35,025 bases of DNA, from NCBI GenBank assembly GCA_945905925.1, contig CAMDQN010000069.1:1-35025 (forward strand), given 5' to 3'. This DNA is from Singulisphaera sp. GP187. Its GTDB lineage: Bacteria; Planctomycetota; Planctomycetia; Gemmatales; Gemmataceae. The notes beneath the pieces are model-generated. The model searched no databases, was not told the origin of the DNA, and was given only the letters and a program-made list of their open reading frames with translations. Shown one piece after another: positions 30,305 through 32,603 of this stretch; within the stretch, counting starts at the first letter, position 1; the number at the start of each line of letters is the position of its first letter. Position numbers and translations under genes: made by a program.

Positions 30305-30796
30305 ATGCTCGCTTACGAATCCGCCGACCAACTGCTCGCCGAGCCGGACGCGCGCCGGTTCCTGCACGTCGTTCTCCTGAACGCGATCCGCGACAAGGCC
30401 ACACAACTCGAAGTGCGGTTCGGCGAGGAGGGCGGGTTGCTCTACTATCGCGTGGACGGCAAGGACTGGGAACTCTCCGCGCCGCCCGACGAGATCTACC
30501 CACTGTTGAAGGACACCGTGCGCGAGGCGGGGCGATTAGTATCGCCGGAGCGCCCGGACCTGACCGTGATCGCGGGCATTCCCGGCGCGCGGTACGAACC
30601 ACTCGAAGCCGGTTGGCTCACATATCAGCTCGGCGGGCGCTGGCTCGACCTCGCTGTGCGCATCGACCCGCGCGAACCCTACGGCTTCATCAGGTTCGAC
30701 ATCGACGACGCGAGCGACTTCGCCGACGCCGCAGGCGAAGCCCTCGCCGACTACGCCACGCGATTGACCGCGGAGGAAGGCGAACCCGGAGCGTAA
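30305..30796 (+). CDS. Stand-alone GspE/PilB N-domain-like protein
   Basis: 163 residues from ATG 30305; the upstream extension of the open frame is read from the preceding gene and the 27-nt repeat. LHVVLLNAIRDKATQLEVRF followed by LLYYRVDGKDWEL resembles the region of type II/IV secretion ATPases just before the motor domain (IL..AI..KASDIH.EP......RYRVDG). The ATPase itself (Walker boxes, Asp and His boxes) is absent, so no motor function is possible. The rest (WLTYQLGGRWLDLAVRIDPR) is unassigned. The 3' end, including the TAA, lies within the left arm of the inverted repeat 30779-30850. Confidence 0.7.
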   Translation: MLAYESADQLLAEPDARRFLHVVLLNAIRDKATQLEVRFGEEGGLLYYRVDGKDWELSAPPDEIYPLLKDTVREAGRLVSPERPDLTVIAGIPGARYEPLEAGWLTYQLGGRWLDLAVRIDPREPYGFIRFDIDDASDFADAAGEALADYATRLTAEEGEPGA

Positions 30797-30850
30797 GCGA
30801 CGGGGGGTGTTTCTCGGCTTCCACCCCGTCGCTTACGCTCCGGGTTCGCC
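30779..30850. repeat. Inverted repeat, GGCGAACCCGGAGCGTAAGC arms
   Basis: Perfect 27-bp inverted repeat (30779-30805 with 30824-30850) and an 18-nt loop. It covers the last codons and stop of the upstream gene and ends 7 nt before the kinase ATG. No T-run follows, so it is not a standard terminator but could dampen translation of the kinase. Confidence 0.93.
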
Positions 30851-30857
30851 AACACCC

Positions 30858-32603
30858 ATGACACCCGAACACGACGAACAGTTGGCGTCACTCATCGACC
30901 GGCTCGCGGGCGAGCAGCGGGCCGGGCACCCGCCCGACATCGACGCCGCCGCGCGCGACCACCCAAATCTCGCGGCAGAGTTGCGCGAACTGTGGGCCGT
31001 TGCGCAGTTCGCGTACTTGGCGAGCCCGCCGGAACCGGCTCTGCCTCTCACCGTTACCTCCGCGCGCACCGGGCCGCTCACGCCATCGTTCGCGGGCGAT
31101 CACACCACGCACACCGCCTCCACGCTCCCGCGTGACTTCGGCGATTTCGAGTTGCTCGAAGAAGTCGGGCGTGGTGGGATGGGTGTCGTGTATCGGGCGC
31201 GGCAGAAGAGCCTCAACCGCATCGTCGCGCTGAAAATGGTGCGCGAAGCGCATCTCGCGACCGACGCCGACCGCGCGCGGTTCCGCACCGAGGCTGAGTC
31301 CGCCGCGAAGCTCAAGCACCCGAACATTGTGACTGTGTACGAGGTCGGCACGGCCGGTGGGCAAGCGTATCTGTGCATGGAGTTCGTCGGCGGGCAGACG
31401 CTCGCGGAGAAGGTTCGCACGGACGGCCCGCTCCCACCGCGCGAAGCCGCGCGCCTGGTCGCGGTGATCGCGCGCGCGGTCGAACACGCCCACGCCTTCG
31501 GGATCATTCACCGCGACCTGAAGCCAAGCAACATCCTGTTGCAAGCGGGCAGTGAGCAGTGGGCAGTGGGCAGTCAGAATCAAGGCTCGGTGTCTTCACC
31601 GTCCACTGCTCACTGCCCACTGCCCACTTCGACACCGAAGGTGTCCGACTTTGGGCTGGCGAAGAAGATCGACAACGCGGAGAGCATCACGAAAACCGGT
31701 GCGGTGGTCGGCACGCCGAGCTACATGGCACCCGAACAGGCTGCGGGGCGCAAGGAACTCACGCCGGCCGCAGACGTGTACGCGCTCGGCGCGGTGCTGT
31801 ACGAACTGCTCACGGGACGGCCCCCGTTCCAGGCCGCGCACCCGATCGACACACTGTTGCTGGTACTCGAACAGGAACCGGTCCCGCCACGCCACCTGAA
31901 CGCGACCGTGGATCGCGAACTTGAACTCATCTGCCTGAAATGCCTCCAGAAGCCCGCGACCGTGCGCTATCCGACGGCCGGCGAACTCGCGGCCGACCTC
32001 GAAGCGTACTCCGCCGGTCAGCCGGTCGCCGCCGCGCCGAGCGGATTGCGGTTCTTCGTGGCGCGATTGTTCCGCGAAACGCACCACGCCGACATCCTCG
32101 AAAACTGGGGCAAGTTGTGGATCTTCCACAGCGTGATGATCTTCCTGTTGTGCCTGCTGACGCAAGTCATGAAGTGGTCGGGGCTGAACGATCACGTGTG
32201 GTACATGAGCGTGTGGTCGGTGGGTCTGGTGACGTGGGGCACCGTGTTGTGGCAACTCCGCAAGGCGGCGGGGCCGGTGCTGTTCGTGGAACGCCAAATC
32301 GCACACGCGTGGGCAGCCGGCGTGTGCGCGAGTATTGCGATGTTCTGGATCGAGTGGCTGATTCCGCTGGACGCGTTGACGCTCTCGCCTGCGGTCGCGG
32401 TCGCGGCGGGAATGGTGATGGTGTTCAAGGCCGGCATCCTGTCGGGCCGGTTCTACGGTTGGGCGGCGCTGAACTTCGTGGCGGCAATCGTCATGCCACT
32501 GGTGCCGCAGGTGAGCATCTTGCTGTTCGGTGCCGTGTCGGCGCTGTCGTTCTTCGTGCCGGGGCTGAAGTACTACCGCCAGCGCAAGGCCCGCGTCGCG
32601 TAG
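30858..32603 (+). CDS. Membrane-anchored serine/threonine protein kinase with repeat insertion
   Basis: 581 residues from ATG 30858. An N-terminal helical segment (EQLASLIDRLAGEQRAGHPP) common in planctomycete kinases precedes the Hanks-type kinase domain (about 97-390): GRGGMGVVY (104-112), VALK with Lys 126, HRDLKPSN (218-225), DFGL (264-267), GTPSYMAPEQAAG, DVYALGAVLYELLTGRPPF. Between ILLQ and PKVSDFGL about 29 extra residues (GSEQWAVGSQNQGSVSSP and onwards) come from a palindromic DNA repeat inserted in frame (31547-31626); this loop tolerates length changes, so activity may remain. The C-terminal ~190 residues hold five or six membrane helices (LWIFHSVMIFLLCLLTQV, FYGWAALNFVAAIVMPLVPQ) instead of the usual sensory repeats. 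Last of five plus-strand genes that include an ECF sigma factor. Confidence 0.93.
   Translation: MTPEHDEQLASLIDRLAGEQRAGHPPDIDAAARDHPNLAAELRELWAVAQFAYLASPPEPALPLTVTSARTGPLTPSFAGDHTTHTASTLPRDFGDFELLEEVGRGGMGVVYRARQKSLNRIVALKMVREAHLATDADRARFRTEAESAAKLKHPNIVTVYEVGTAGGQAYLCMEFVGGQTLAEKVRTDGPLPPREAARLVAVIARAVEHAHAFGIIHRDLKPSNILLQAGSEQWAVGSQNQGSVSSPSTAHCPLPTSTPKVSDFGLAKKIDNAESITKTGAVVGTPSYMAPEQAAGRKELTPAADVYALGAVLYELLTGRPPFQAAHPIDTLLLVLEQEPVPPRHLNATVDRELELICLKCLQKPATVRYPTAGELAADLEAYSAGQPVAAAPSGLRFFVARLFRETHHADILENWGKLWIFHSVMIFLLCLLTQVMKWSGLNDHVWYMSVWSVGLVTWGTVLWQLRKAAGPVLFVERQIAHAWAAGVCASIAMFWIEWLIPLDALTLSPAVAVAAGMVMVFKAGILSGRFYGWAALNFVAAIVMPLVPQVSILLFGAVSALSFFVPGLKYYRQRKARVA
31547..31626. repeat. 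Palindromic GGGCAGTGAGCAGTGGGCAG repeat inside the kinase gene
   Basis: Left arm built of near-tandem GGGCAGT units (31547-31574), right arm ACTGCTCACTGCCCACTGCC (31605-31626 region). At least 16 bp pair. The element keeps the kinase reading frame open on this strand. Confidence 0.88.

Follow-up and report, generated by a model that had tools for sequence, protein, structure and literature searches.

How a protein kinase can carry a DNA palindrome through the middle of its catalytic core and still be read as one open frame is the question raised by this locus. The window analyzed here is one entire contig of 35,025 bases, and the genome of origin (G000) comprises 6.47 Mb in 251 contigs. On the forward strand, at 30807-32603, a single open frame of 598 codons reads through the palindrome and encodes a Hanks-type Ser/Thr kinase, as determined with the ORF tool, Pfam (Pkinase, E 9.3e-53), and an alignment to PknB. 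The kinase domain has both of its characteristic motifs: the catalytic loop HRDLKPSN (31509-31532, forward strand) is intact, with residues that are invariant in a 36-sequence alignment, and so is the DFG motif (31647-31655, forward strand), which is seen in the same alignment. The ORF tool starts the frame at the GTG at 30807. Judged from the sequence, the in-frame ATG at 30858, directly after another palindrome, is the likelier true start. By eye, that second palindrome (window 30780-30849, CGAACCCGGAGCGTAAGCGACGGGG / CCCCGTCGCTTACGCTCCGGGTTCG) overlaps the upstream ORF at its end and the kinase ORF at its GTG start.

The palindrome between HRDLKPSN and DFG is a GGGCAGT-armed hairpin of 87 nt (31543-31629) that codes for about 26-29 residues. 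An inverted-repeat search located a left arm of iterated GRGCAGT (31543-31574) and a right arm of iterated ACTGCYC (31598-31629), so that the stem is built from iterated 7-nt units. The arms are 32 nt each and 84% complementary, rising to 92% in their inner part (31551-31574 / 31605-31628), and they are separated by a 23-nt loop (31575-31597) with the apex motif GTCTTC on its 3' side, read in the frame TCT TCA. RNA folding of 31530-31645 gave -66.4 kcal/mol (z = -7.48), and an equally stable fold was reached by none of 200 dinucleotide shuffles and none of 500 codon permutations of the insert. Allowing three mismatches, GTGGGCAGTGGGCAGT has six matches in the window, all inside the palindrome stretch, against 0.38 expected, and six were reached in 0 of 100 shuffles. 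A chance origin of the palindrome is ruled out by the fold z, the shuffles, the codon permutations, and this match count. An origin from a plasmid was also considered and rejected, as a BLAST search with the low-complexity filter on found no match among 72,556 records. The first-pass annotation had described a palindromic repeat inserted in frame between the catalytic loop and DFG, and the open frame, arms, fold, and PknB alignment all agree with it. Its further claim that the reading frame and both catalytic motifs are preserved holds as well. It placed the repeat at 31547-31626; the location is right, and the palindrome extends slightly beyond those ends.

Because 7 and 3 share no common factor, an array made purely of this 7-nt unit encodes one heptapeptide cycle in all frames. 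For the heptamer found here, it follows from the sequence that this cycle is GSGQWAV in one direction and TAHCPLP in the other, and that the array is stop-free. PknB (1mru) aligns only to residues 7-140 and 167-302 of translated window:31128-32045, and residues 141-166 (31548-31625, forward strand) are therefore a coding insert of 26 residues without PknB counterpart. The alignment puts this insert in a turn that, using the strand names of the kinase fold, we take to be the beta7-beta8 turn. An AlphaFold2 model from the 36-sequence alignment (mean pLDDT 85.8) retained both strands (residues 136-139 and 169-172), with low confidence for the insert blocks (pLDDT 54, 54, and 66).

The same site was compared across the genus. 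Apart from the window, the best match in 17 of the 19 genus genomes was an ortholog with 76-89% identity; G006 (65% complete) yielded only paralogs and was left out, which gives 18 orthologs with the window counted. All 18 have 28-38 residues at the kinase site. In a codon-permutation fold test, 13 of the 18 inserts were clearly palindromic (at most 1 of 500 permutations equally stable), that of G003 was borderline (8 of 500), and no palindrome was found in those of G002, G013, G014, and G016. Assigned by eye, and with several assemblies in draft state, the 13 clear palindromes fall into eight classes: GGGCAGT (G000, G018, G007, and G015), GGCCGGTGTGAGCCGGCC (G004 and G001), GGGGGCGTCAGCCCCC (G017), AAGGCGG (G005), GCGCGGA (G012), AGATTGC (G009), GTCGAAAGTCGTAA (G010 and G008), and AAGGATG (G011). 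Palindromes at the same site, some of further classes, also occur in paralogs and in other planctomycetes (L260, L269, L274, and L301). The statement in the first-pass annotation that planctomycete kinases elsewhere have similar repeat-derived peptides in the same place is borne out by these orthologs, paralogs, and more distant kinases, and its own ground for refutation, the absence of any other such insertion, does not apply. Beyond what it had noticed, different palindromes occupy one site across species, and the same is true in other genes. The GGGCAGT DNA pattern itself was found at the kinase site in 3 of 95 family genomes, one of them (G091) from another genus; this is a lower bound because the pattern is codon-specific.

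Many kinases have a 10-residue spacing at this site instead of a long insert. The genome of origin has 66 PF00069 matches, among which the HRD-DFG segment was measurable in 47 and not in 19 (an earlier, narrower motif had measured 35 of 66). The segment is at most 14 residues long in 39 of the 47, and among the eight longer ones a strong palindrome is present only in the window kinase; L211 has z = -3.5 and the others range from -1.3 to 1.1. The insert is thus not a feature of all kinases of this genome. The G011 sample likewise has two kinases in which this segment is long and not palindromic. In G007, GGGCAGT arrays (C120:6612-6689) lie inside a second kinase match (C120:6217-6999), so the paralog there probably has an insert too. 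These distributions bear on the reading that the insert serves the kinase as a functional regulatory loop, for which the DNA palindrome was only the origin. The long segment in every genus ortholog, none of them empty in the window's clade, is what such a loop would leave. We nevertheless consider it very unlikely, as the insert sequence is not conserved between orthologs, model confidence for the segment is low, and most measured kinases of the same genome do without it.

For a quick tree, 68 kinase rows were used, with the insert excluded and with insert-free rows limited to 14; L230/L285, L056/L231, L063/L232, and L064/L233 are duplicate records. Among the 54 long-segment rows, 25 were labelled non-palindromic. 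The clade of the window (23 rows with duplicates counted, SH-aLRT 99) contains no insert-free row. No empty allele was found among these 23, the entry of a palindrome was not observed there, and insert-free sites occur only in more distant relatives. Neighbouring rows bear different palindrome classes. With all labels, the tree requires 26 changes, where the minimum possible is 14 and the shuffled mean is 39.6, and none of 200 shuffles was as low, which indicates some clustering. The nine GGGCAGT rows require nine changes, at least five of them forced by starred branches. Replacement of one class by another at the same site, as known from the Nostoc P6b stem-loops, is found here too. No target duplication was identified.

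The comparison of G002 with G001 supports such a replacement. Their 330-nt flanks are identical at 319 and 317 positions (97% and 96%), whereas their inserts agree at 47 of 78 positions (0.60), a level that shuffled sequence also reaches (0.64); the G002 insert is itself no longer a palindrome. Other pairs of different class have insert identities of 0.59-0.75 against 0.59-0.61 for shuffled sequence, with the highest values in G000/G017 (0.75 against 0.61), G000/G004 (0.69 against 0.59), and G000/G005 (0.67 against 0.60). The excess over shuffled identity in some of these pairs means that the ends of the insert may be old and of shared ancestry. A single inherited insertion followed only by drift fits poorly with G002/G001, although the partly alike pairs speak the other way. 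Between G002 and G001 (L054 and L056), differences are concentrated beside the insert: either side has six within 60 nt of it, and the five blocks beyond have 0-3 each. This density is what would be expected if kinase-site swaps came about by exchange of alleles between species through homologous recombination and not by new copying. That explanation seems to us rather unlikely, as the G002 patch is close to no other sampled ortholog, and inserts match repeats of their own genome.

The latter point rests on searches for dispersed copies. GRGCAGT arrays with at most one mismatch lie at 12 other places in the genome of origin, with 32 matches against 7 for a reversed control pattern, and the window insert accordingly belongs to a dispersed repeat family with several copies in its own genome. 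By eye, many of these arrays are hairpins beside or between ORFs. Inserts were also searched against samples from six genomes (2.18 Mb in total, with 400 kb from G000). Matches in the genome's own sample were found for four of the six (G000, 3; G004, 4; G011, 2; G018, 1), and the G005 and G008 inserts had none in their own samples. The G008 insert matches the samples of G018 (3) and G004 (1), and GGGCAGT inserts also match those of G005 and G018, with no match in the G004, G008, and G011 samples. Across the genus, the number of GGGCAGT arrays ranges from 0 to 136 per genome, in counts that include the kinase copies themselves. The four genomes with a GGGCAGT ortholog rank above the other 14 (one-sided Mann-Whitney p = 0.023), and p = 0.0016 is obtained when three genomes with GGGCAGT paralogs are added, in statistics that ignore phylogeny. 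A strict double-array pattern was abandoned as a genus census, as it was too strict and matched only 5 of 19 genomes. The six samples together contain 308 hairpins of many families, some with arms of period 7 or 8 and others of G+C-rich REP types; among the 32 with periodic 5' arms, the period is 7 in 26.

The kinase is not the only host of such elements. One GGGCAGT match in G015 falls in MnmG, and mnmG was matched in 18 of the 19 genomes and measured in 17 (the G006 gene is truncated). The corresponding site has 36 nt, and is empty, in G009, G014, and G016, and has 42-51 nt in six others. It holds a 60-nt palindrome in G007 and in-frame palindromes of 99-126 nt, with differing sequences, in G015, G000, G011, G018, and G012. 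G010 (L375) has a frame-shifting insert of 172 nt with long C runs, which may reflect either misassembly or a genuine break, and the 253 nt of G013 (L374) contain an assembly gap. Setting aside 17 of the 308 sampled hairpins that lie at edges, a codon-usage test placed 13 of the remaining 291 in frame inside coding sequence; 18 have two coding flanks with another frame or strand or an intervening stop, 93 have one coding flank, and 167 have neither. Pfam families are matched by 12 of the 13 ORFs with an in-frame hairpin, and the remaining ORF shows a likeness to a phage terminase that falls below the cut-off. The profile match is interrupted at or beside the element in RNase R, HemW, and PSD1, and in a penicillin amidase it continues through it. 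PSD1 (DUF1553) is a third gene, after the kinase and MnmG, with such variation at one site: five copies caught by motif have 31 residues in G000 and 49 in G018, with different palindromes, and 3, 4, and 8 in the others. The genome of G000 has 96 PSD1 (PF07587) matches, several of them split near profile positions 62-65, the site of the palindromic insert of L115.

These further genes also help to judge whether the hairpin, as mRNA or DNA, is itself selected at the site, for example for translational pausing, while only its sequence drifts. The palindrome would then be kept by compensatory changes, slippage of the 7-nt unit, and quasipalindrome correction. A strong fold retained in 13 of 18 orthologs despite different sequences, the lack of empty alleles in the window's clade, and the higher G002/G001 divergence within 60 nt of the insert are all compatible with this. 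It is nonetheless an improbable account, given that four of the 18 orthologs retain the length without a hairpin, that inserts match dispersed genome repeats, and that MnmG, with its empty sites, and a dozen other genes behave alike.

A candidate for the mobilizing agent is the RAYT protein (PF01797, Y1 transposase), which would move the palindromes, so that genomes lacking RAYT genes would lose them by decay. PF01797 is present in 16 of 19 genomes and absent from G002, G014, and G016, which are three of the four with an ortholog that has no palindrome. The pattern was noticed post hoc, though, and concerns three genomes, two of them tree neighbours, with phylogeny uncorrected; moreover, G013 has PF01797 matches yet no kinase palindrome. 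At 12 genus RAYT loci (the three PF01797 matches of the genome of origin are not among them), nine have long flanking inverted repeats and none has heptamer arms, so the same repeat does not flank the transposase gene, as it would in a RAYT-mobilized element. We regard a role for RAYT as doubtful.

A shared feature of the inserts is the apex motif, for which we compiled 49 inserts, consisting of 44 distinct kinase inserts and five chosen long MnmG inserts. TCTTC is present in the 3' half of 15 and GAAGAC in the 5' half of eight, and the reverse placing was found for TCTTC in none and for GAAGA in two. The apex is read as TCT TCx in 15/15 and as GAA GAC in 8/8, compared with the same frame in 44 of 699 TCTTC and 207 of 458 GAAGAC in ordinary long coding frames; the insert counts are non-independent trials because many inserts are related. 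Site-specific entry need not be invoked for the frame, which stop avoidance together with a preference for hydrophilic residues could account for. As a mark of every heptamer hairpin, the motif is weak, with 12 of 42 dispersed hairpins having it in the expected halves and two in the opposite ones. A bolder proposal is that a shared GAAGAC...GTCTTC apex unites the heptamer-armed palindromes into one mobile-element superfamily with hypervariable arms. Its members would enter, in one orientation and frame, a small number of preferred codon positions, would be spread across phyla (Gemmata proteins, and perhaps the Nostoc trnL intron), and would continually generate new protein loops. We think this unlikely and put it forward as speculation.

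The explanation that we favour, and hold to be probable, is that the insert is a copy of a dispersed, REP-like, heptamer-armed palindrome of the GGGCAGT family, lodged in a permissive surface loop of a Gemmata kinase, and that such elements enter tolerant loops in frame by copying and are replaced there by others. These genomes would harbour numerous families of palindromes, each spreading by copying. Intragenic copies would survive only in loops able to bear 25-40 extra residues, and only with a stop-free frame and hydrophilic residues. Hairpin-primed recombination or template switching might later overwrite an occupied site with another palindrome, as might an insertion into the resident element or an exchange with some allele outside the sample. 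In the kinase, the encoded peptide would form a flexible loop that is probably neutral.

Several known systems share parts of this behaviour. Rickettsia palindromic elements (RPE) of about 150 bp form named families and are described as lying in frame in unrelated protein-coding genes (PMC10969869). As with RPE, the palindrome here is in frame within a conserved protein-coding gene and encodes a peptide of the host protein; compared by description, the elements found here differ in their size of about 75-105 nt (87 nt in the window), their iterated 7-nt or REP arms, and the presence of unrelated elements at one ortholog site. According to PMC3733652, GTAG/CGTC REPs inside ORFs code for about 20-30 residues, many intragenic REPs are found in Opitutus terrae, and recB of two Xanthomonas species has different REPs at about the same site. 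The elements described here differ in that eight classes occupy one site within a genus, further genes are affected, and the arms are mostly heptamer arms and not GTAG/CGTC-tagged; the arms of the window palindrome (31543-31574 / 31598-31629) contain no GTAG or CGTC tag.

The P6b element of the Nostoc trnL intron consists of stem-loops with 7-nt repeats, and PMC4476775 reports two classes, one of which repeatedly replaces the other at the same site, and one stem-loop type with the loop AATCTTC. The 7-nt-repeat stems, the class replacement at one site, and a loop resembling the TCTTC apex are points of likeness, while the Nostoc element lies in a self-splicing intron and not in a protein and has only two classes, and the likeness of the loops may be due to chance. 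Dispersed G-rich heptamer tandem repeats, some as inverted pairs, are also reported from Xanthomonas and Nostoc (PMC4692102), and those found here are likewise dispersed 7-nt tandem units with some inverted pairs. We found no report of palindromic inserts in planctomycete kinases in the open-licence PMC literature; one paper that counts Gemmataceae kinases (PMC11032199) contains neither 'insert' nor 'palindrom' in its main text. Coding palindromes (RPE and intragenic REPs) and mutually replacing 7-nt-armed stem-loops (Nostoc) are thus already known, and what is new is that both habits are joined at fixed protein sites.

For annotators, the finding is a warning not to take such peptides in planctomycete proteins for conserved domains. 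For the biology of the group, one genus in which a single kinase loop holds eight palindrome classes with a surviving frame points to a live route from repeat DNA to protein. The empty, filled, and swapped alleles of MnmG, together with the swapped alleles of the kinase, make the entry of coding palindromes, their cost, and their usefulness testable, and the hosts for such tests are free-living and partly culturable bacteria.
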